Source: Gallionella sp. (GTDB taxonomy: Bacteria; Pseudomonadota; Gammaproteobacteria; Burkholderiales; Gallionellaceae). From it: DNA of 64,000 nucleotides. Numbering within the stretch: the first letter of the stretch is position 1; every line of letters starts with the position of its first letter. The notes below the pieces were generated by a model that saw only the letters and a program-made list of their open reading frames with translations, did no database searches and was not told the DNA's origin. The stretch is from contig JAQUAI010000009.1 in the NCBI GenBank assembly GCA_028687335.1, forward strand, positions 1 to 64,000, read 5' to 3'. The position numbers and the translations under genes are program-made. Positions 49,947 through 62,819 of the stretch are shown piece by piece.

Positions 49947-49981
49947 CAGCAAGGGCGAGGTAACTCGCCCTTGCTGTTTTT
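49947..49981 (+). terminator. Strong terminator for the glycine-zipper gene
   Basis: A 13-bp stem CAGCAAGGGCGAG/CTCGCCCTTGCTG with loop GTAA and T5, touching the stop codon of the convergent macB permease. Confidence 0.92.
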
Positions 49982-51200
49982 ACTGATAGCGCAAGGCTTC
50001 GATAGGGTCGAGTTGGGCGGCTTTGCGTGCTGGGTAGTAGCCGAAGAAAATACCCACAGTAGCCGCCACGCCGAAAGCGACAATGACAGAGCTGAGCGCG
50101 ATGATGACTTTTGTACCGGTTAGCAACTCCACCAGTAAAGCACCGCCGATGCCGAGCAGTAAACCGATGAAGCAACCGATGACCGAGATGATGATGGCTT
50201 CCAGCAGGAATTGCAGCAGGATGTCGCGTTGGCGCGCGCCGATTGCCATGCGAATGCCGATTTCGCGGGTGCGCTCGGTGACCGAGACCAGCATGATGTT
50301 CATGATGCCGATGCCGCCCACTAGGAGTGACACCGAGGCGATTGCGCCAAGCAATAGCGACATGACGCGGGTAGCTTCGGCGGCAGAGTCGGCTACCGCC
50401 GTGAGATTACGCAGCGAAAAATCATCATCCAAACCTTCGCGGATACGGTGCCGCTGGCGCAACAGTTCCGTCATTGATTTTTCCACGCTGGGCATAATTT
50501 CTTGTGTGGTGGTCTGCACCATGACCATACGCACCGAGCCAGGGAACTGGCTGCCGAACACCTGACGCTGGGCAGTGGTGAGCGGGATGATGATGGTATC
50601 GTCTTGGTCGCGTCCATCCATACCTTGTCCTTTGGTACTTAACAATCCGAGAATGACGAAAGGACTTTGCCGAATGCGGATGGTTTGTCCGACGGGGTCG
50701 GCATCACCGAATAGATTTTGTGCGGCTGTTTTACCGATGAGTGCGACGCGGGTGGCAGAACGCACGTCGGAGTCAGTAAACGTGTTACCGGAAGCTACAG
50801 GCCATGAGCGTGCATCCAGATAACCGGGGGTGGTGCCAATGATCGAGGTATTCCAATTATTTGGCCCATAGACGATTTGCGCGCTGCCGGGATGGATAGG
50901 GGCAATGGCTTGTACGCCGGGGAGCTCCGCGATTGCCTCGGCATCGGCGACATTCAGCGTGTAACTGCCGCCGCTGCCAGAACGCACACCGCCAGTTGAA
51001 CTACTACCGGAAAGCAAAACGAAGAGATTGCTGCCCATCGCGCTGATGGTTTGCTTGATTGAGTATTGCGCGCCTTGTCCGACCGACATCATCAGTACTA
51101 CCGCACCCACGCCGATCACCATTCCCAGCATGGTCAAAAAAGTGCGCATGCGATTGGCACCCATGGCGCGCCAAGCCTCTCCCAGCATGGCGAGCTTCAT
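49980..51200 (-). CDS. MacB-type ABC transporter permease
   Basis: 406 residues. A first span near 20-40 is followed by a large periplasmic domain and a FtsX-like C-terminal block of three spans (VTERTREIGIRMAIGARQRDIL). Corresponds to the permease half of E. coli MacB, here a separate gene. ATG 51200 overlaps the ATPase stop by 4 nt. Part of tolC-macA-macB. Confidence 0.9.
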   Translation of the reverse strand: MKLAMLGEAWRAMGANRMRTFLTMLGMVIGVGAVVLMMSVGQGAQYSIKQTISAMGSNLFVLLSGSSSTGGVRSGSGGSYTLNVADAEAIAELPGVQAIAPIHPGSAQIVYGPNNWNTSIIGTTPGYLDARSWPVASGNTFTDSDVRSATRVALIGKTAAQNLFGDADPVGQTIRIRQSPFVILGLLSTKGQGMDGRDQDDTIIIPLTTAQRQVFGSQFPGSVRMVMVQTTTQEIMPSVEKSMTELLRQRHRIREGLDDDFSLRNLTAVADSAAEATRVMSLLLGAIASVSLLVGGIGIMNIMLVSVTERTREIGIRMAIGARQRDILLQFLLEAIIISVIGCFIGLLLGIGGALLVELLTGTKVIIALSSVIVAFGVAATVGIFFGYYPARKAAQLDPIEALRYQ

Positions 51201-51904
51201 AGCGATGCCTCCGTGTGTAGCGTGGCGTGGTCGTTGACAATGCGCCCGTCGAGAAAATGCACTTGCCGTTGGGCATGTTGCGCCACATCAAGTTCGTGCG
51301 TGACCAGCACGATAGTGATGCCTTCGCGGTTGAGCGATTCGAACAGTGCCATGATTTCGGTGCTGGTGTGACTATCGAGGTTGCCGGTCGGCTCGTCGGC
51401 AAGAATCAGGCTGGGACGGTTGATTAGCGCGCGGGCAATGGCGACACGCTGCTGCTGCCCGCCGGAGATTTTATTGGGCATGGAGTCGAAGTATTTTTCC
51501 AGCCCCACTTTAACCAGCAGTTCGCGTGCGCGCTGATGACGTTCGGCCCGCTCCACGCCGCAGTAGATCAGGGGCAGGGCGACGTTGTCTTGCAGCGACA
51601 TGCGCGGCAGTAGATTGAATCCCTGAAAGACGAAACCGATGGTGCGATTGCGCAACAAGGCCAGTGCATCTTTGTCCAGCGTGGCCACATCATGTCCGTC
51701 CAGCCGATAACTGCCCGCGCTGGGGTGATCAAGGCAGCCGAGGATATTCATGAAGGTTGATTTTCCCGAACCGGATGGCCCCATGACGGCGACAAATTCA
51801 CCGCGCGTGATGTGCAGTGAAACCTCTTTGAGTACGGGAAAAAGTCCCGCCGAGGTTTCGTAAGACTTGTGCAGTCCCTCAATATGGATGACGCTGTCGT
51901 TCAT
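51197..51904 (-). CDS. MacB-type ABC transporter ATPase
   Basis: 235 residues. Walker [10 protein letters not shown], signature LSGGQ-type [15 protein letters not shown], Walker [13 protein letters not shown]. Closest to LolD/MacB ATPases. Coupled to macA (TGATG) and to the permease (ATGA). Confidence 0.93.
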
Positions 51905-53085
51905 CAGAACATTCTCATCGGTGGCTTGGCAGCAGCAGTGGGTTTGTTACCGGCCAGAGTGTCGCCAATAATGATCTGATCGCCCGCTTTCAATTCGCCA
52001 CCGACGATTTCAGTATTGCGGCCATCGGTGATGCCAAGGCTGACGCTTATTGCTACCGGCTCGCCGTTCTCCAGCACATAAACCTTACCGGAGAAACCAT
52101 CGCGTTTAGTTTTATCGCCATTCTTCTTACCCATGCCGTTGGAGGCTGATGTGAGGGCGCTCGCGGGTTTGAAACGCAGTGCTGCATTGGGAACCAGTAG
52201 CGCATCTTTGCGTTCGTTCACCGCGATATTCACGTAGGCGGTCATGCCCGGCATCAGAATTTGCTCCGGGTTATCGACATTGATGACCACGTCGTAGGTC
52301 ACGACATTCTGCTGAGTGGTCGGGTTAAGGCGGACTTGGCGCACCTCGCCCTGAAAGTTGCGGTTCGGAAAAGCATCTACGGTGAATTTCACTACTTGAT
52401 TGACTTTGATGCTACCGATGTCAGCTTCGGCAAAATTGGCGTGAATCTGCATCTGTGCCAAATCTTGCGCGATTTTGAACAGGGTAGGGGTCTGTAAACT
52501 GGCCGCGACGGTTTGCCCGACATCGACCGCGCGGTCGACCACCACACCAGAAACCGGCGAACGGATCACCGTATAAGCCACATTGGCGGTATCTTTTTCC
52601 ACTACGGCGCGGGTTGCCAGCACCTGTGCTTCGGCGGCTTTTTTGGCTTGCACCGCCGTATCCAACTCTTGGCGCGAGACGTATTCCTGCCCGAATAAAT
52701 TACGCATTCTGGCCTCGTTGGCCGTGGCTAAATCGAGCGAGGCCATGGCACTTTGCGCATTTGCCCGGCTTTGTTTTTGTTGTGCTGCCAGCAGCGAATC
52801 GTCCAACTCCAGCAAGATTTGCCCCTTTTCAACCTTATCGTTGAAATCGACATAAAGCTTCTTCACGATGCCGGAAACCTGAGTGCCAACGCTGATGAGC
52901 GAGACTGGGTTGATCGTGCCATTGGCTGAAACCAGCTGCGTAATCTCACCTTTGCCCACGCTTTCCAAGCGATATTGTTGCTGCGGGTCGGTCATGCCGA
53001 CTTGGCGATAAGTGACGATACCGGCGGCGATCAGCAGCAGTGTGAGCAGAAATAATGCAATGGGTGCGCGTAACAAACTTCTCAT
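51904..53085 (-). CDS. macA: MacA-type periplasmic adaptor
   Basis: 393 residues. N-terminal membrane anchor (about 7-25), barrel-sandwich and coiled-coil hairpin (KKLYVDFNDKVEKGQILLELD; RVAL-type helices), and a beta-barrel/membrane-proximal end. Links MacB with a TolC-like channel for export of macrolides, peptides or other substrates; substrate unknown here. Overlaps tolC by 4 nt. Confidence 0.92.
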   Translation of the reverse strand: MRSLLRAPIALFLLTLLLIAAGIVTYRQVGMTDPQQQYRLESVGKGEITQLVSANGTINPVSLISVGTQVSGIVKKLYVDFNDKVEKGQILLELDDSLLAAQQKQSRANAQSAMASLDLATANEARMRNLFGQEYVSRQELDTAVQAKKAAEAQVLATRAVVEKDTANVAYTVIRSPVSGVVVDRAVDVGQTVAASLQTPTLFKIAQDLAQMQIHANFAEADIGSIKVNQVVKFTVDAFPNRNFQGEVRQVRLNPTTQQNVVTYDVVINVDNPEQILMPGMTAYVNIAVNERKDALLVPNAALRFKPASALTSASNGMGKKNGDKTKRDGFSGKVYVLENGEPVAISVSLGITDGRNTEIVGGELKAGDQIIIGDTLAGNKPTAAAKPPMRMF

Positions 53086-54482
53086 GGTGTTATTTTCTCC
53101 TGTGTGGTGGCCAACCCCTGCAACAAGTTGGCATCCAGATTGCCCATGCTCTGGGCGAGAGTGGCACGACTGATATTCCAGTCGAGTGCGGATTGAATGC
53201 GTTGCTGCCGTGCTGAAGCCAGCGCACTTTGTGCGTTCAGCACATCGAGCATATTGCCCACGCCAGCCTTATATCTACCCGATGCCATGCGTTCAGATTG
53301 TTCCGCACTATTTAGTAAATCGGCACTGGTTCGCAGTGCTTGCGTGGAGGTGACCAGATTTTGGTATGCCGTCCAAACATCTAGCGCGACTTGCGAGCGT
53401 ATCCGTTCAGCCTGAGCCTGCTTGGCTTCCACCTGAGCCTCGGCGGCACGCACGCGGTAGGTCGGCGCATAGCCGGAGAAAATCGGCACACTGACACTCA
53501 CCCCCAGCGAAGAACCGTGCGAGCTAATCCCCCCCGTGCTGGTTTGGTTGCTTGAAGCACTCAAAGAAATGCTGGGTTTTCCCGCCGCCCGTACCGCTTC
53601 GGCACTGGCTTCGGCAGCTTTCAACTGTGCCTCGGCAGCTTGAATGTCGGGGCGCAAGCGTTTGGCTTGCTCAATCAGCAGCGCAACATCATGCTCAAAA
53701 TTCTCATCGCCAATCTTGCTTTCGCCCGCTTCAAGCGCAACCGTACGATTGGCATCGAGTCCGACCACATTGGCCAGCGTGCCTTGCGCCTTTTTCATAT
53801 TTCCTTCGGCAGTGATACGCGCCAAAATCGCTTGCGACCAAGCTGTGCGCGCCTGCAACTTATCGGCGGGTGTGGCTGCACCTGCCAGATAACGCGCCTC
53901 GGCTGCGGCAAAGCTATGCTGCGCCGCACGCTCTGATTCAAGCGCCGCATCCAGCGCCGCTGCGGCTGCCCGAGTACGATAAAACGCCTGCACCGCAGCT
54001 AGAAACAAACTCTGTACCGTGCCATCTTGCGTAGCACTAGCAGCAGCTAGTAACTGCCGCGCATTTTCCAAACTGGCAGCACGCGCGCCAAAGTCATAGA
54101 GCAGATAAGAAAGTGTCAGTCCGATAGCGCGCTGATTTGTACCAAGTGAATTGCGACTCCCCGACGCACTCACGCTGGCACTCGGCAGATAACCCGCCTG
54201 ACTCACGCCTAATTGCGCCGCCTGAACTTTTGAGCTGGCCCAAACTTCGCGTGTTTGCGGGTTGTTGCATAAGGCCAGATTAACGACCTCCATCAAGCCC
54301 AGTGTTTTCTCACTGCTGACACCCTCACATGGATCACCAATCGCACCGCCTAAGCGAAGCGATGGTTTCAGCGGCAAGCGAGCATCAGTGGCAAAGGGAT
54401 CCGATGTTTCCGCTGCAAGGCTGTTGCCGCTTAAAAAAACGAGCAAAGCAACTGCTGTGAAATGAAACGAACGAGCGCGCAT
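53082..54482 (-). CDS. TolC-family outer-membrane efflux channel
   Basis: 466 residues. Sec signal (ending SLAA, about residue 24) and two OEP repeats with long Ala/Gln/Arg-rich helices (TREVWASSKVQAAQLGVSQAG; RLRPDIQAAEAQLKAAEA). First gene of the reverse efflux operon. Similar to TolC/CyaE types. Confidence 0.92.
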   Translation of the reverse strand: MRARSFHFTAVALLVFLSGNSLAAETSDPFATDARLPLKPSLRLGGAIGDPCEGVSSEKTLGLMEVVNLALCNNPQTREVWASSKVQAAQLGVSQAGYLPSASVSASGSRNSLGTNQRAIGLTLSYLLYDFGARAASLENARQLLAAASATQDGTVQSLFLAAVQAFYRTRAAAAALDAALESERAAQHSFAAAEARYLAGAATPADKLQARTAWSQAILARITAEGNMKKAQGTLANVVGLDANRTVALEAGESKIGDENFEHDVALLIEQAKRLRPDIQAAEAQLKAAEASAEAVRAAGKPSISLSASSNQTSTGGISSHGSSLGVSVSVPIFSGYAPTYRVRAAEAQVEAKQAQAERIRSQVALDVWTAYQNLVTSTQALRTSADLLNSAEQSERMASGRYKAGVGNMLDVLNAQSALASARQQRIQSALDWNISRATLAQSMGNLDANLLQGLATTQEKITP

Positions 54483-54718
54483 GTGAAGAGATTAAGAGTC
54501 GGCTTTAATGAGCGTGCAGTATAACGACAGCCAGCGAAATCAAAAACGAAGCAGATGTAAGGAAATGTTGGAACACAAAAAGCGTTGTGCAGATTGGGCA
54601 ACTGCCTCGATTCTTTGGCGGAATGAGAGTTGGGGATCGTTTATGCCGTAGAAATGCCCCGATTTATGTGTTTTTGATTGCAGCAAAAAGCGTTCTGGTT
54701 TATCCTGCGCGCCCTTTC

Positions 54719-54809
54719 GGAGAGGTGGATGAGTGGTTTAAGTCGCACGCCTGGAAAGCGTGTGTGGGGTAATACCCCACCGCGGGTTCGAATCCCGCCT
54801 TCTCCGCCA
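54719..54809 (+). tRNA. tRNA-Ser (GGA)
   Basis: 91 nt with a long variable arm. Acceptor stem GGAGAGG/CTTCTCC, anticodon loop in CGCCTGGAAAGCG (anticodon GGA), variable arm TGTGGGGTAATACCCCAC, T arm GGTTCGAAT, discriminator G and encoded CCA. It is the upstream border of the accessory region. Confidence 0.95.
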
Positions 54810-54820
54810 GTACATCAATA

Positions 54821-54846
54821 AAAATGCGCCTTACGGCGTATTTTTA
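54821..54846 (+). terminator. Terminator after tRNA-Ser
   Basis: AAAATGCGCC/GGCGTATTTT around TTA, followed by T-rich sequence, 11 nt after the tRNA. Confidence 0.85.
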
Positions 54847-55198
54847 TTTGGTAGCCATCATGCTAGCCATCAAAATGAACAAAGCTTTAGGCTTGTTCAT
54901 TTCTGACTATTTATACCTGAGCATGGAACAATGGGCAGACAAGCTAGATGCCATAGCAAACACTGCTATATGTTCGGAACACCAATATCGCGAAGCGGTT
55001 TAGTCCATGGCCGAGAGCCTGCTTGTCTCTTGCTCGGCCAAAGCGGAAATTTAGGAAAGAGGTACTCTACATCTGCTAAGAGCCCATGAGCTGCCATACA
55101 TGAAGTGGGTACCGACGCTGACAGCGATCTACACACTTTTCAAGTTGATCAGGGCTATTGGCCAGCTTTTATTCACGAAAACACATTTTCTATGACGT
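54847..55198. other. Gene-poor flank between tRNA-Ser and the giant nuclease gene
   Basis: About 350 bp. It starts with two direct copies of TAGCCATCA (54852-54860 and 54864-54872), an arrangement often seen next to tRNA-targeted elements. A 42-codon frame (54875-55003; MNKALGLFISDYLYL...) and a hairpin of GGCCGAG with CTCGGCC (near 55009-55042) are visible. No integrase is recognisable. Confidence 0.4.
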
Positions 55199-58100
55199 CT
55201 AAGAAAGTGTAAGTGGTCCGATCTTATCGGACGGAATAGGTAGGGATTCTAAATACATCATGGGCACATGCGTGTTAGTCACAAGCCTAGCGTCTATGGC
55301 GTCATGGCTTGGGATAAATCCAATAATTCGCTCTAGACTTGATGGATTCTGACTTACCCATTTGGAGCGCCTGACGTGCTTGTCGAGTTCATCCTTTGCC
55401 TCGCCTCTGAACCTGCGGCAAATCTCAGCAATTTCAGCCACTGTGCGAGCCAACTGCAAACGCTTGCATTCGATTAACAGAACCTCACCACTGGGCTTCC
55501 ATGCCAAAACATCAATATCCCCATCCGCAGCTTTCCGTGGCGCGCCAAGTTCGCTCATTCTCAGCTCATTGCGAGCTTGCCAACCTTGACGGCGTAGCTC
55601 CTCCGCAATAGATTTAGCAAAAGCATGGCCTCGCTCATCATTAACTGCGCCTATGTATTTCTTCATAGCCGTTGTTACGAAGAATTTGTCTGCTGGCAGC
55701 TGTCCGCTTTCAGCTCGCTCCAGCAGATAAGCAAAACCCAACTGCAGCGCTCCCGCACCGAAAAAAACAGCATCGGAATCCTGCTCACCAAAAATTAAAA
55801 GTGGCCGAACAGTTGCGGAAAGCCTGCGACGAAATCGCCACGGCTCAATGTCTTTGTTATTAAACCCTTCTGGCGGCTGCTGCCAAGATGAGCGGTGGAA
55901 GAGCCCAAATGTCCTAAAATATGATTCACATGCATCAATTGAGATGCCGCGCCTTAGTATAAGTCGCTCCCGCAATTCGCCAAGTGTTGTCTGCACTACT
56001 ACATTGTTCTGTTCAACAGCCAAATCCATTAACTCCGCAAAGCCATCAACTGCCTCGTCAGGAGTTAGACCAAACTCTGTCTTGAATGCATTGTTGAACT
56101 CAGCCGAGTAAATATCGTCCGCCCGCTTTCTTTCTGTTCTTCGTTCTCGCTGGTAGAGTCTGCTGTAGTCGCCTGCCGCCCCTTCAAATTCCTCACGTAA
56201 GTAGTTGGTCAAAAATGGGGTAATCACCGTCTCGTGAAAGCTACGGTCGATTGTGTATTCACCATTAGCATGCAGCCGAATCACCGGTTCAACCAACTCA
56301 CCCTTTATTGCGTCTGAATCAGTTGCAGTCTCAACGAGCAACGCTGCCTTTGCGAGCAAGTCATCGAGTTCCCACTGAGATAGTGCTCTCCCGCCAGCAG
56401 CAGAACACTCGCAAATAGCCATTTCCATAATAGTTCTGGCCGGCAGCGATATTTGATTGCGGTCGCTCTCTCTTTTCCTAGCAACAGCAAAGACGTCTTC
56501 GTCTGGCTTGTATAGCGAAATGATAGCTTGAGCAGTTCTTCGCCAGTGATCTCGATCCTGAATGACCGCCTCGTGAAGTGCGAGTGTTTGCCGGATCACA
56601 GAAGCCCTATTGAACTGCTGCAGTTGGGTACGCAACTGCCCCCATACTTTGGCCACTACTTTGTGCAGGAAGTCGTTGCACTCATCCTTGGTTTTCAGTT
56701 CCGCCTCTGGCTTAATCTCCGTACATCCTTCTGAGAGCCTTAACTTGGAGAAAACAAAATCTTCATGAGAAAGAAATACTGGGGTTTGATTTTGCTGCGC
56801 CAGCAGGTATTCAATAGGATAGTACGTATGGAATAGGTGTAATACGCGCATGCCGACGTCGCCGATGATCTTTTCCAATAAAATTTCAATCAAGGCTTCA
56901 TTATCATCTGAGCCCGATGGACTGGCCTGATGAAGCCTCACAAGCCCCTTGGCAAGCGCACAGAGCACAAGTTTCTCTCCTGTATTTTCGTGTTGCTGAA
57001 AGTTCACAAGAAAATCGGAGGGGAACCTAATTTCGACCATTCGCTGATCGAGATTAACAAGCACAACAGGTTCAGCGATGGGGATATTAGTCTTGGTTAC
57101 CACATACTCATCCGGCACAATTAGATCGCGAAAGTTGAGTCGAATTTCAATCGCTCCCGATGCGAGGTGATGCAGAAGAGCTTCGATCTCAGTTACCAGC
57201 CGGTCAAATAGACCAAGGAAGCCAGACCACATCTGATAGAGGAGATGCCGAACCGAATCGTCCCCATCACGTGGCTCAACAACAAGCCAAGTTGGCCCTC
57301 GCAACGTCTCCACAGCACCGGCTAAAACACCTGTACGCAAATGACCAAGACTTACATAAATAGGGCGGCCTTGCATCGATTTAAAGTAGGCATCCCGACC
57401 AAATCGCATGGACTGTACAAACTGCCCATCTGCCGTTTGCATGAGGTGCTGATCGACTAGATTGCGTAGCTCTTTACGCACCTGTAAGACAAAGTCGTGA
57501 CCGACTCCAACCATCGACCCAGAATCAACCTTAAGTTCTCTCGGAATGAGCTGATAATTAAAGCTACGCCAGTAGCAGTAAAAATTAAAATCACCATTGA
57601 TGTTCATGAAATAGACACCCTGGTTTTCGGCCCACACTTTCTGTTTGATGCATTTCAGGTAACGATTGATTGGCTGATCAATTTCTCCCGCCAACATAAG
57701 GAGATCGGACACGCGAATGGCCGACCATCGCCATCCGTCGTCTGGCCAATCATTGAAGCCAAGCATAAAGCCTCGCCCCAGCCCACCCATGACAAGCAAG
57801 GTCATTCCCTCAGCGAAACCAGGTAGTGCCTTGCAATACGCAGTCACTTGACTTAAGTACCTCTCCAAACCTGCTCTCACCGGCTCCGGGTACTCCAAAG
57901 CACTTGAGAGCCCTTGTTCATCTAACCAATCTAACCGGTCGTGGAGTAAAACTACGTGGAGATATTTATTGGTGTCGTACTTAAGCAGCCACGCATGGAG
58001 TGACGGCATCGGCCCCCCATCGGCTAACGGAGGTGTAAGCGATTCGGCATCGTTCTTCAGTTCCCGTAGGCCATCCTTTTCAATTTGACGGGCTTGGTGT

Positions 58101-58909
58101 GCGGCCAATACATCACCAAAAGCTTGCAAGTACCCCATCTTCCGCAATTCAGACAACATAAATCGTCTGATAGCAGGACTTACTGCGTGCGGTAACGCCA
58201 AGACCAACGCATCACTAAAATCAACTAGAGGTCGTAGCTCCAAGGTAGTGTGTCCTGTCGATTCAACCTTGAGCGTTACCTTATCTTCTTCGCGAAATAT
58301 GAATGGGGTGAGCAACTCACGGCCAACCCCCAACTTTTCCAAATCGTCTTTCGTAAATGTCACTGCACGCGCTCGGTCTTCGATATGCATCACCGGAGCA
58401 ACTGGAACGATCCCTTTAGAGTTTGAGGATTCAATGTGCCACCTGTGCAACCCTAGGCGTTCAGCTACAGTGTCACTTAGCTGAAGTAATGCGTATGCGG
58501 ACTTTAGTAAATCATGGCACGCTTGCGGCGCATTGCGGTTCAGCAGAGTGTCGAGGACAACCTGAAGGAAATAGTCATTTGATTCCCAAATTCCTTCAAA
58601 GACTCTGCGATTTCCTTCTGGAACATGAACGTTGGTGACAAATACATCCTCAACAGGGTCTTCCCACAACGCCATCTGGGTTTGACCGAGATATTGGTTT
58701 AACCAGCGCCCTAGTTCCGCATACCCCGGCTTGATGTTGCCTGCGCAGTACGCAACAGCAAGGTGAACCAATACCTCTAGTCTGATGGTGTTCGCCTGGA
58801 GATTCGGCGCAGTAAGTAGTCCGGCTGAGCGAGCAATGGTCGCACGTGGTGCGTACTTCGACAGTACACGAGCAAGTTTTTCTGTTTCTTCCGATGCAAT
58901 GGGGATCAT
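55199..58909 (-). CDS. Giant protein with C-terminal PD-(D/E)XK nuclease motif, unknown
   Basis: 1,236 residues; no known family recognised. The last about 160 residues look like a restriction-endonuclease fold: helix FAKSIAEELRRQGW, then GDIDVLAW (D1131/D1133) and LLIECKRL (E1147, K1149), a classic D-x(n)-ExK catalytic core of the Mrr/VRR type. About residues 1-1050 are a helical and beta mixture with no Walker or helicase motif visible and no transmembrane segment. Four segments are Trp-rich (for example DWPDDGWRWSAIRVS). The gene stands alone, with A+T richer text than its neighbours and rare tandem-overlap context, between tRNA-Ser and gloB. I infer a horizontally acquired, possibly defence-related nuclease. 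The start ATG 58909 has only a weak upstream purine stretch. Confidence 0.75.
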   Translation of the reverse strand: MIPIASEETEKLARVLSKYAPRATIARSAGLLTAPNLQANTIRLEVLVHLAVAYCAGNIKPGYAELGRWLNQYLGQTQMALWEDPVEDVFVTNVHVPEGNRRVFEGIWESNDYFLQVVLDTLLNRNAPQACHDLLKSAYALLQLSDTVAERLGLHRWHIESSNSKGIVPVAPVMHIEDRARAVTFTKDDLEKLGVGRELLTPFIFREEDKVTLKVESTGHTTLELRPLVDFSDALVLALPHAVSPAIRRFMLSELRKMGYLQAFGDVLAAHQARQIEKDGLRELKNDAESLTPPLADGGPMPSLHAWLLKYDTNKYLHVVLLHDRLDWLDEQGLSSALEYPEPVRAGLERYLSQVTAYCKALPGFAEGMTLLVMGGLGRGFMLGFNDWPDDGWRWSAIRVSDLLMLAGEIDQPINRYLKCIKQKVWAENQGVYFMNINGDFNFYCYWRSFNYQLIPRELKVDSGSMVGVGHDFVLQVRKELRNLVDQHLMQTADGQFVQSMRFGRDAYFKSMQGRPIYVSLGHLRTGVLAGAVETLRGPTWLVVEPRDGDDSVRHLLYQMWSGFLGLFDRLVTEIEALLHHLASGAIEIRLNFRDLIVPDEYVVTKTNIPIAEPVVLVNLDQRMVEIRFPSDFLVNFQQHENTGEKLVLCALAKGLVRLHQASPSGSDDNEALIEILLEKIIGDVGMRVLHLFHTYYPIEYLLAQQNQTPVFLSHEDFVFSKLRLSEGCTEIKPEAELKTKDECNDFLHKVVAKVWGQLRTQLQQFNRASVIRQTLALHEAVIQDRDHWRRTAQAIISLYKPDEDVFAVARKRESDRNQISLPARTIMEMAICECSAAGGRALSQWELDDLLAKAALLVETATDSDAIKGELVEPVIRLHANGEYTIDRSFHETVITPFLTNYLREEFEGAAGDYSRLYQRERRTERKRADDIYSAEFNNAFKTEFGLTPDEAVDGFAELMDLAVEQNNVVVQTTLGELRERLILRRGISIDACESYFRTFGLFHRSSWQQPPEGFNNKDIEPWRFRRRLSATVRPLLIFGEQDSDAVFFGAGALQLGFAYLLERAESGQLPADKFFVTTAMKKYIGAVNDERGHAFAKSIAEELRRQGWQARNELRMSELGAPRKAADGDIDVLAWKPSGEVLLIECKRLQLARTVAEIAEICRRFRGEAKDELDKHVRRSKWVSQNPSSLERIIGFIPSHDAIDARLVTNTHVPMMYLESLPIPSDKIGPLTLS

Positions 58910-59263
58910 TAATCAATTCCAACATCAAGTTGTAAGTTAGAAACTGTATAGTCATGAATCGATGTAGGGAAGAAGGATAATCTATTAATTGCCCGCAGGG
59001 GGATGACTCACGTGCATTGTTATCCTTTTCTGAATGGCAGTTTCGATGAAAAGATATTCTTCCGCTTTGGGGCGGGAGCGAACTTGGTTTCCAATTCATG
59101 CCGACGACCGCTATGGCCGAAGAGCCGCCCTTCCACGCTGACCTTTTTACCGCTCCACTCTATCAAGCCATTTGAGTTGAATCTTAAAAATGTATCAACA
59201 ACTCCCTATCAAACCAGCCGTCTTTGCTTAATTGGATATTTGAGTGATCTAGCCCGAGCATTT
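58910..59263. other. Non-coding or decayed stretch between the nuclease gene and gloB
   Basis: About 350 bp. On the reverse strand from about 59199 to 59020 an open frame without an ATG reads coding-like text (NGLIEWSGKKVSVEGRLFGH...) ending at TAA. It may be a gene remnant. A forward frame of 116 codons (59003-59353) overlaps gloB and looks spurious. It also holds the presumed promoter of the nuclease gene. Confidence 0.35.
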
Positions 59264-60025
59264 TCAAAACCGCCCACGCCATCGCCGCAACGCATCGAAT
59301 ACCGCAACTTCGGAAAAGTCGGTTTGTCCACGTTGCCGCAAGGTATGGTGTAGTGCGGTTTGCTGGCAACGCAGAAAAGGGTTGGTGGCTTTTTCTGTTG
59401 CGATACTGAATGGAACGGTGGCTTGTCCGGCTCGCAACAAGTGCGCGGTTTCGGTTATCCGTTGGCGGATGGCGAGATTGTCAGGTTCGCAGGCGAGCGC
59501 GAAGGGGAGGTTGTAGTCGGTATATTCGTGTGCGCAATAAACCAGCGTCGAGTCGGGCAGGGCGGCGAGACGTTGCAGCGAGGCGTGTAGTTGCGCGATG
59601 GTGCCCTCTGAATTTTTACCGCAGCCGCCGCCAAACAAGATGTCGCCGCAAAATACGGCGCTATCCGTCAGAAAAGCGATATGGTCTTCCAAGTGGCCGG
59701 GTAGCTCCCATATTTTGAAGCTGATGTCGGGTTGTTCGAGTTTGAGTGTGTCGCCCTCGCGCAGGGGGTGGGTGATGTGAGGATTTTTCGGATGTTCGCG
59801 CCCGTACACTGGGACGTTATATACTCCGCGCAATTCGGCGATGCCGCCGATATGGTCGTGATGGCGATGGGTGCATAGGATGCCGTCAAGCTGCATGTGC
59901 TGTTGTTGCAAAAAATCAAAAACGGGTGCGGCTTCGCCCGGGTCGACTACGACAGCGTGCTGTCCAGAATGAATCGCCCAGATGTAATTGTCTTGCAGGG
60001 CGGGGATGGCACTAATGGTGTACAT
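59264..60025 (-). CDS. gloB: Hydroxyacylglutathione hydrolase (glyoxalase II)
   Basis: 253 residues. Metallo-beta-lactamase motif THRHHDHIGG (53-62), GHLEDHIAF, FCGDILFGGGCG and YCAHEYTDYNL. It hydrolyses S-lactoylglutathione. It diverges from the methyltransferase gene with little spacing. Confidence 0.95.
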   Translation of the reverse strand: MYTISAIPALQDNYIWAIHSGQHAVVVDPGEAAPVFDFLQQQHMQLDGILCTHRHHDHIGGIAELRGVYNVPVYGREHPKNPHITHPLREGDTLKLEQPDISFKIWELPGHLEDHIAFLTDSAVFCGDILFGGGCGKNSEGTIAQLHASLQRLAALPDSTLVYCAHEYTDYNLPFALACEPDNLAIRQRITETAHLLRAGQATVPFSIATEKATNPFLRCQQTALHHTLRQRGQTDFSEVAVFDALRRWRGRF

Positions 60026-60044
60026 ATCGAAATATGTGAGTTGG

Positions 60045-60797
60045 ATGCCGAATTCTAAATTAATCGCGCACAGTCTGGATGAATGGTTTACCTCGGAACA
60101 AGGGGGGTATGTGCTTGAGCGCGAGCAGGCTTATTTTGATCAGGTGGTGGCCGATCTTTTCGGGTTTAATGCTGTGCAACTGGGATTGCCGAGCCAAGAT
60201 TTTTTGCGCCAGAGCCGGATGGCTTTGCGCGTCAAAGCCGGTAATCAGACGGGCAATGATGTGCGTTTGTGCTGTGATGAGTTGCCGTTTGAAAGCGACA
60301 GTCTGGATATGTTGCTTGTCCCGCATGTATTGGAGTTTACCGATAATCCGCACCAAACTTTGCGCGAGGCGCAGCGGGTGCTGATGCCGGAAGGCAATCT
60401 CATCATTAGCGGCTTCAATCCGCTGAGTTTGTGGGGTTTACATCATGCTTTGGGGCGGCGCGAAGGCTATCCGTGGGGCGGCAAATTTATCGGTTTGGCA
60501 CGTTTGAAGGACTGGCTGGCATTACTCGGATTTGAAGTCATCGGAGGCCGCTTTGCAGCGTATGCACCACCCGTGCATCAGGCTAAATGGTTGGAGCGCT
60601 TCGAATTTATGGAAAAAGCGGGGGATCGTTGGTGGGCGGTCAGCGGCGGCGTGTATTTTCTTCACGCGGTAAAACGTGTTCACGGCGTGCGTTTGATTAA
60701 ACCGCAATGGAACAGCGGCTTGGTGAAAAACCTGCTACCTGTGGCGCCTAAATTGAATAACCGTCTCACCCAACGTAACGAATCAGAATCGCAATGA
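60045..60797 (+). CDS. SAM-dependent methyltransferase (class I)
   Basis: 250 residues from ATG 60045. Methyltransferase-11-like core: [45 protein letters not shown]. The usual glycine-rich motif I is weak or absent, so SAM binding is uncertain. The gene is conserved between gloB and rnhA in betaproteobacteria. An earlier in-frame start at 59988 lies inside divergent gloB. Confidence 0.8.
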
Positions 60798-61246
60798 GTA
60801 CAGAAATTGTTGAAATATTTACCGACGGCGCATGCAAAGGCAATCCCGGCGTGGGAGGGTGGGGCGCGCTGTTGCGCACCAAAGGAAAAGAACGTGAAAT
60901 GTTCGGCGGCGAAGCGCACACCACCAACAATCGCATGGAGCTAATGGCCGCGATTTCCGCGCTGGAAGCTTTGAAACGCCATTGCAAGGTACGTTTGCAT
61001 ACCGACTCGAAATACGTCATGCAGGGCATCAGCGAATGGATACAGGGCTGGAAGCTGCGTGGTTGGAAAACCTCGGATAAAAAGCCGGTCAAGAACGAGG
61101 ATTTGTGGCGCAGGCTGGATGCAATTGTCGCGCAGCATGACATTGAGTGGGTGTGGGTCAAAGGCCATGCCGGACACGAAGGTAACGAACAAGCTGATGC
61201 GTTGGCGAATCGTGGCGTATTGTTAGTGCAAGAAAAAGGAGAGTAG
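60794..61246 (+). CDS. rnhA: Ribonuclease HI
   Basis: 150 residues. Catalytic acids lie in [27 protein letters not shown] and [12 protein letters not shown], with [18 protein letters not shown]. It removes RNA from RNA-DNA hybrids. Overlaps the methyltransferase by 4 nt (ATGA). Confidence 0.96.
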
Positions 61247-61248
61247 CC

Positions 61249-61947
61249 ATGCGCAAGATCGTATTGGATACGGAAACAACGGGACTGAGTCCCTCCGATG
61301 GGCATCGCATCATTGAGTTGGCCGCTATTGAATTGGACGGTCGCCGCGTTTCAACGCAACGCTTTCACCGTTATCTCAACCCCGAACGGGAAATTGATGC
61401 GGGAGCGGTAGCGATTCACGGTTTGACCAACGAGCGCTTGCAGAACGAGCCGTGTTTTGCCGACATTGTTGATGGTTTTTTGGAGTTTATCGAAGGGGCT
61501 GAGCTGATGGCGCATAACGCGCCGTTCGACATGGGCTTTATCAACCATGAGCTGAATTTGCTCGGCAGGCCACCGCTGACCAATAAGGTAGTTGATACGC
61601 TGAAGATGGCGCGCGAGATGCATCCGGGTAAGAAAAACAACCTTGATGCGTTGTGCAGCCGTTATGAAGTTGATAACCAGCACCGCAGTTTGCACGGCGC
61701 GCTGCTCGATACCGAGTTGTTGGCCGAAGTGTATTTCGCCATGACGCGCGGGCAGGAAAGTTTGCTGGGTGAAGATCACACGCCGATGCCGCGTCACGCC
61801 AAAATGAATCAAGCTCAGGGCGAGCGTCCTCCGGTGAGATTGCTGAGTGCCAGCGAAGAAGAGCTGGCTTTGCACGAGCAACAAATGGCCGACATCGACA
61901 AAGCCAGCAAAGGCAATTGTCTTTGGAAAAAACTGGTGGCTGCATGA
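61249..61947 (+). CDS. dnaQ: DNA polymerase III epsilon subunit (proofreading exonuclease)
   Basis: 232 residues. Exo I VLDTETTGLSPSDGHRIIEL, Exo II AHNAPFDMGFINHEL, Exo III SLHGALLDTELLAEVY; clamp-binding tail. It provides 3'-5' proofreading. It lies 2 nt after rnhA and overlaps the hydrolase by 4 nt. Confidence 0.95.
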   Translation: MRKIVLDTETTGLSPSDGHRIIELAAIELDGRRVSTQRFHRYLNPEREIDAGAVAIHGLTNERLQNEPCFADIVDGFLEFIEGAELMAHNAPFDMGFINHELNLLGRPPLTNKVVDTLKMAREMHPGKKNNLDALCSRYEVDNQHRSLHGALLDTELLAEVYFAMTRGQESLLGEDHTPMPRHAKMNQAQGERPPVRLLSASEEELALHEQQMADIDKASKGNCLWKKLVAA

Positions 61948-62819
61948 AGTCGGTATGGTCACGCCGTGTCGCTGTTTCCATCGCCGTATTCCTGCTGGTG
62001 TATGGTTTGGTATGCGGCTATTTTTGGGCGACGCAACGCCAGCATATTTTTCTGCCTGAGCCGCAACTCCAGACCACGCCCGCGCGGGTTGGCATGGCCT
62101 TTGAGGGTGTTCGCATTCCGGTAGGTAATGGCGCGGATGGCGGGGAGTTGCATGGTTGGTGGATACCGGCAGCCGACAACATCAAAGGTAAAACGCCGAC
62201 CTTGCTGTATTTGCACGGTAATTTCCGCAACATCGGTCATAACGTCGAGCATGCCGCACGCTTGCACAGTCTCGGTTACAACCTGTTGTTAATTGACTAT
62301 CGTGGCTTCGGTTTGAGCACCGGTGGTGCGCCGAGCGAGGCTAAAGTGTATGAGGATGCGGAAGCGGCTTGGCAATATCTCAACGACCGCGACGATGTTG
62401 CTCCACAAACCAGCTTTATCTACGGTCACTCGCTGGGTGGCGCGGTGGCGGTTGATCTAGCTTCCCGCCACGGTGATGCGGCTGGGCTGATTTTGGAGGC
62501 AACCTTTACATCAATGATGGATATGGGCGCGATTGAGTATGGTTTCTTGCCCATCGATTTACTGCTGGGAGAACGTTTTGATTCGCAGCAAAAAATCGCC
62601 GAGCTGCATGTTCCGCTGCTGCTCATTCACGGTACTTGGGATGCAAAAATCCCAGTCGAGATGGGCAAGCGTCTATTTGAACTTGCGCCGCAACCCAAAT
62701 TTTTGCAACTGATCGAAGGCGGCGAGCACAGCAACAGCAGTGCCATCGCTTGGATCGAGTATCGCACCGCGTTCGACGGCTTCGTTCGGCAACAACATTT
62801 GCCTCGCCCAGCGCACTGA
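61944..62819 (+). CDS. Membrane-anchored alpha/beta hydrolase (BAAT/DAP2-like)
   Basis: 291 residues. N-terminal anchor (about 7-28), then a hydrolase core: oxyanion loop LYLHGNFRNIGHN, nucleophile elbow GHSLGG, a late Asp (GTWDAKIP) and His (GGEHSN). ATG 61944 overlaps the dnaQ stop (ATGA). Probably faces the periplasm. Substrate unknown. Confidence 0.88.
   Translation: MKSVWSRRVAVSIAVFLLVYGLVCGYFWATQRQHIFLPEPQLQTTPARVGMAFEGVRIPVGNGADGGELHGWWIPAADNIKGKTPTLLYLHGNFRNIGHNVEHAARLHSLGYNLLLIDYRGFGLSTGGAPSEAKVYEDAEAAWQYLNDRDDVAPQTSFIYGHSLGGAVAVDLASRHGDAAGLILEATFTSMMDMGAIEYGFLPIDLLLGERFDSQQKIAELHVPLLLIHGTWDAKIPVEMGKRLFELAPQPKFLQLIEGGEHSNSSAIAWIEYRTAFDGFVRQQHLPRPAH

Follow-up and report, generated by a model that had tools for sequence, protein, structure and literature searches.

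In the work of Gao et al. 2020, Upx was reportedly protective against phage. We describe here a upx-like gene of Gallionella sp. (GenBank assembly GCA_028687335.1, contig JAQUAI010000009.1), found in positions 1 to 64,000 of the forward strand, a 64,000-nucleotide stretch called the window below. Its product, P0001, is very probably a single-gene anti-phage defence of the Upx type that was acquired horizontally and belongs to a well-separated branch. The table and reference list of PMC10855318 attribute Upx to Gao et al. 2020, and that table groups it with nucleic-acid-degrading systems; it was treated as a separate system both there and in the available text of PMC12629846. In the latter, Upx was confined almost entirely to a single hotspot of PAGI-1 islands of Pseudomonas, and the available part of PMC12824646 placed it, along with qatABCD, on an integrative and conjugative or integrative and mobilizable element of Vibrio europaeus. 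Within the accessible portions of these three papers and of PMC13249269, Upx appeared only in lists of systems or system locations; the “upx” of PMC12691588 denoted other loci, and the main text of PMC13367071 did not contain the word. A paper on the Upx mechanism was not found in the open-licence literature, and one on the structure 9wuf may exist elsewhere.

P0001 was matched by the PADLOC profile PDLC02221 (Upx) at E 1.1e-161 (residues 6–1222 on positions 34–1252 of 1271) and by the NCBIfam model NF042954 (“anti-phage protein Upx”) with 612.9 bits over residues 6–1220, missing the curated equivalog cut-off of 1,900. A sequence search of the PDB (E up to 1) gave a sole match, 9wuf_A (E 3.4e-93). 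The same entry (fold-library title “Cryo-EM structure of Upx”, released 2026-02-11) was the only whole-length fold match, the P0001 model having the overall Upx fold. P0123, a protein of another genome, scored 2,185 bits on NF042954 and matched 9wuf_A over residues 1–1272, indicating that 9wuf is a canonical Upx. PF28173.1 was precomputed on P0001. A search of 5.8 billion proteins yielded 251 relatives of P0001 among 7,994 candidates scored; all 120 matches listed (P0001 included) carried PF28173.1, and the others of them were 53–89% identical to P0001, with full-length relatives at 83–84%. P0123 had 180 relatives, of which all 120 listed carried PF28173.1 and several were source-named “anti-phage protein Upx”.

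Identity of P0001 to the sampled canonical Upx branch was 24–28%, and the apparent lack of identities from 28% to 53% should not be read as a measured gap, as it rests on 120 listed of 251 and 120 listed of 180 relatives. In a FastTree tree of 121 chosen sequences, the P0001 branch (81 members) was separate from the Upx branch (36 members), with support of 0.955 and 1.0. The profile, PF28173.1 and 9wuf matches, the missed cut-off and the separate branches together indicated that P0001 lies within the wider Upx family but outside the NF042954 equivalog group, its branch being, by sequence comparison, well separated from canonical Upx. The original prediction had taken the gene for an undescribed defence or mobile-element candidate, since about 1,050 N-terminal residues matched no recognised domain. 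A single-gene anti-phage candidate with a nuclease C-terminus, gained at a tRNA gene, was borne out; “undescribed” was not, because the whole length matches the Upx profile and 9wuf. P0001 was thus matched confidently to a known family, though to one of defence and not of housekeeping. The first reading was sound on the sequence and is already explained by Upx.

The predicted gene was confirmed as an uninterrupted 1,236-codon frame; it starts with ATG, has no internal stop and lies on the minus strand. The plus-strand frame was stop-ridden, the longest plus-strand open reading frame (ORF) inside being 109 amino acids. The proposed nuclease core, GDIDVLAW...LLIECKRL, was located at residues 1130–1151 (GDIDVLAWKPSGEVLLIECKRL), with E1147 and K1149 correctly numbered. 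D1133, E1147 and K1149 were jointly present in 117/117 rows of the family alignment (A2), and the P0001 model showed the elements of a PD-(D/E)XK core in their alpha-beta-beta-beta-alpha-beta arrangement (read by eye), indicating that the motif was not due to chance. Fold comparison also recovered the nuclease fold, likening this domain, and only this domain, to archaeal Hjc, EndoMS/NucS, VRR_NUC, Card1 and McrC. Foldseek against a viral library gave nothing confident (best E 0.036). In the alignment, 113 positions were conserved in 95% or more of the 117 rows. The acidic motif EDPxEDxF was near-invariant (E83 and F90 in 117 rows each, E87 and D88 in 116, D84 in 115, P85 in 110). A Pfam scan of P0001 found nothing significant, and so neither a recombinase nor a restriction-modification domain; a tandem repeat scan found none.

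Residues 494–687 resembled M1/M61 aminopeptidases (zincins) in fold only, with middling strength and 3–12% identity. At the inferred zincin site (644–648), none of the 117 rows had His at 644 or at 648, and all had Glu at 645. HExxH occurred somewhere in 13 of 245 proteins; seven of the 13 were in A2, all with the motif elsewhere than 644–648 (two in another helix of the zincin-like domain near 557–573 and two near 490–506). Membership in the M1/M61 metallopeptidases was rejected, as HExxH was absent from the inferred site.

A whole-genome search of 61 genomes (36 others of the genus and 24 others of the order) found the gene only in the genome of the window. Because 0/60 relatives carried it, the idea of a housekeeping gene at a fixed site was rejected; a conserved syntenic site in all relatives had been looked for and was not found. 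Samples of the order and of the phylum, which overlap, gave matches in 2/398 and 2/397 other genomes; at only 25–32% identity, these four belong to other branches. Matches of 60–66% were detected in five metagenome-assembled genomes (Sedimenticola, Nitrospira, Zixiibacteriota, Clostridia, cut by a contig end, and Fermentithermobacillus), one fragment (64%) in Thiogranum and one match (27%) in a metagenome-assembled Phycisphaeraceae genome; together these are the seven homologue loci (L002–L008) from genomes of named species. Distant relatives (24–28%) were present in six plasmid records, two of the plasmids being typed conjugative. A search of 50,697 phage records returned no match at E 1e-5, one viral-collection contig (L090) had a family fragment at its end, and a canonical upx gene found no counterpart in E. 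coli genomes by megablast. Scattered taxa, plasmid relatives and absence from relatives made up a distribution that, judged from these searches, fits a gene moving between distant lineages.

As predicted, the gene lay beside a tRNA-Ser gene, 389 bp from its stop end (Table 1). A gloB match at E 1e-86 or better was present in 35/40 other genomes of the genus, and in 26/29 loci of other genus genomes gloB was followed, 43–261 bp away, by tRNA-Ser in the same orientation; the remaining three had no tRNA-Ser on the locus. In the window, 4,454 bp separated gloB from tRNA-Ser; the upx-like gene lay in this interval, and the tRNA was inverted. No other ORF between the two exceeded 149 amino acids (from the ORF list; small ORFs were not domain-scanned), consistent with a single-gene system, and neither 54810–55198 nor 58910–59263 matched the loci of other genomes compared at E 0.01. 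GC content of the insert was 0.482, against 0.545 in the left and 0.534 in the right flank. Directly after the tRNA CCA, relatives had many types of sequence, some common to several genomes. In each of 20/24 relatives (L095, L102, L106 and L113 were left out), a single ORF beyond the tRNA-Ser, the largest there or nearly so, was scanned: four matched PADLOC at E 1e-10 or better (a type III and a type I restriction enzyme, IetS, and a partial GajB-like helicase, the last at E 3.9e-14) and 16 did not. These four were L097, L098, L103 and L105; in L097 the tRNA was not beside gloB. The relatives' spacing, the variable post-tRNA sequence, the flank ORFs and the lower GC indicated, from the sequences compared, that the insert is foreign DNA at a variable tRNA site, and the 3′ side of tRNA-Ser is a possible defence hotspot of the genus.

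Table 1. Features of the upx-like gene and its insertion site (window coordinates)
Feature	Position	Strand	Remarks
upx-like gene (P0001)	55199–58909	minus	intact ORF of 1,236 amino acids; matches to PADLOC PDLC02221, NCBIfam NF042954 and 9wuf
C-terminal PD-(D/E)XK nuclease domain	55253–55672	minus	about residues 1080–1219
Catalytic motif G1130-D-I-D1133 ... E1147-C-K1149	55463–55522	minus	D1133, E1147 and K1149 kept in 117/117 A2 rows
Zincin-like (M1/M61 aminopeptidase-like) fold without HExxH	56849–57430	minus	residues 494–687; candidate pseudo-protease/sensor module
Acidic motif EDPxEDxF	58640–58663	minus	residues 83–90; conserved in A2 rows
tRNA-Ser(gga)	54719–54809	plus	inverted relative to gloB compared with relatives; 3′ side variable in genus
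Insert between tRNA-Ser and gloB	54810–59263		absent between them in relatives; upx-like gene its only long gene
gloB (hydroxyacylglutathione hydrolase), right-hand neighbour	59264–60025	minus	Pfam HAGH_C and Lactamase_B

The 45–52 bp preceding the window tRNA still aligned to relatives (about 85–90% in the rows shown), and this retained sequence started near the position equal to the gloB stop codon in L044; we therefore place the insertion break, as a reading of the alignment, at the end of gloB. At 54671–54809, the tRNA retained about 48 bp of old upstream sequence, with TTTTGA at both edges. The inverted orientation of the tRNA is either genuine or an artefact of the assembly. At the far end of the insert, a repeat scan found no copy of the tRNA-Ser 3′ end that could be an attachment site; the only repeat pair (22 nt, 77%, 54799–54820 and 55496–55517) reached inside the gene and was probably due to chance. 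In 24 relatives, a home-made regular expression, a weak test, picked up no tyrosine recombinase in as much as 6 kb past the tRNA.

Nine flanking genes (49980–62819, within the 64-kb window) were scanned with Pfam and included no restriction methyltransferase and no helicase, agreeing with the prediction that the gene had no such partner. To the right of gloB were a methyltransferase-domain gene, an RNase H gene and an exonuclease gene read as dnaQ-like. The Methyltransf_11 protein (59988–60797), beside gloB and rnhA, we take to be housekeeping from the gene order. To the left of the tRNA were tolC-, macA- and macB-like genes (names read from Pfam domains). About 150 kb separate the tolC-like gene (51904–54482 in the window) from gloB in the single-contig relative G063, indicating that the region was rearranged.

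Neighbours of the homologues were scanned as chosen ORFs at the seven loci L002–L008. Gene orders were hsdM, hsdS, upx, hsdR in L003; hsdM, hsdR, YgjP-like, Fic (SoFic profile), upx in L004; and IetS, upx in L005. The type I restriction operon of L003 (287–9638) had the upx-like gene inside it, with the upx and hsdR frames overlapping by 20 bases. L007 had an antitoxin-like neighbour (MqsA/Panacea) as well as a short stretch of UvrD, and L008 a HipA-like gene adjoining a family fragment, with a weak PDC-M03A match; L006 had HDOD and LpxI genes and no defence gene, and L002 had one neighbour, which gave no match. In the neighbourhood survey, as proposed with the original prediction, defence neighbours were clear at 3/7 loci and toxin-antitoxin-like at 2/7, and none was found among the ORFs tested at the other 2/7. 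Elsewhere, one neighbour of a distant homologue (L089) matched MADS profiles (mad3, E 1e-27), and on a Bosea plasmid the annotation 1.8–8 kb downstream of a relative included one helicase and two TIR-domain proteins.

The source names of P0018 and P0030 (“Holliday junction resolvase”) and the resemblance of the nuclease domain to Hjc and EndoMS would suit a nuclease with an accessory role in DNA repair or junction resolution, one that accompanies restriction systems without being a defence itself. This is very unlikely: the names were taken as automatic, resting on the C-terminal domain, 9wuf alone matches the whole length, and presence in about 1/200 or fewer of the genomes sampled, with absence from the genus sample, is unlike a housekeeping repair enzyme. 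There is equally little to expect of a separated subunit of a type I restriction-modification complex, as suggested by L003, with the gene between hsdS and hsdR, and by L004. Some homologues do lie in or beside such operons, but the nine flanking genes of the window included no hsdM, hsdS, hsdR or other restriction-modification gene, P0001 had no such domain, the gene adjoins IetS in L005, no restriction-modification gene was among the tested neighbours of L002, L006, L007 and L008, and Upx is a system in its own right in the available parts of PMC12629846 and PMC10855318.

A nuclease gene of a mobile element, with a transposase, homing or integration function at the tRNA gene, would account for the variable tRNA-Ser flank and the lower GC of the insert, but is scarcely credible, given the lack of matches in the phage records and a family that is named and profiled as defence; an integrase-type gene was rejected, since P0001 had no recombinase domain and the insert no other long ORF. 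Promoter-like and terminator-like sites were no commoner in scans than in shuffled sequence, as might be expected if P0001 were a Upx relative no longer active and carried as a passenger after transfer. Its 1,236 stop-free codons, the kept catalytic residues and the existence of full-length relatives at 83–84% identity make such a passenger highly improbable.

The preferred reading, a horizontally acquired Upx-type defence, draws on a whole-length family relation, an intact nuclease site, a patchy distribution and an insertion site, all observed for P0001. The protein would protect its host from phage. The N-terminal ~1,050 residues (helical parts and the zincin-like domain) may detect a product of infection or keep the nuclease inactive, and upon infection the PD-(D/E)XK domain would cut DNA, most likely that of the phage and possibly also that of the host (abortive). 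Because no methyltransferase accompanies the gene, self-protection by DNA modification is not expected, and control would most likely be by a trigger.

Several points weigh against this reading. The function of the P0001 branch may have shifted, since identity to the canonical branch is 24–28% and the NCBIfam cut-off was missed widely. The sensor and gating steps are drawn from fold resemblance only. Most of the 60 relatives were drafts (45 of the 61 genomes were at least 90% complete, with no match in those 45). No defence neighbour was found among the tested ORFs of L002, L006, L007 and L008, except the weak PDC-M03A match in L008; two neighbours on the viral-collection contig L090 matched nothing, and no defence gene was present among the nine flanking genes covered by the Pfam scan. 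It is conceivable, if unlikely, that the branch forms a second, functionally distinct kind of Upx, in which the middle domain, a dead zinc protease, binds a phage-made peptide or protein and so releases the C-terminal nuclease, the pseudo-protease acting as the sensor of infection.

With the family known, the remaining interest of P0001 is in the divergence of its branch and in the possible dead-protease domain. A diverged but intact branch spread over several phyla provides another natural variant with which to map the important residues among the N-terminal ~1,050, and a zincin-like domain without its metal motif offers a concrete, testable idea of the sensor.
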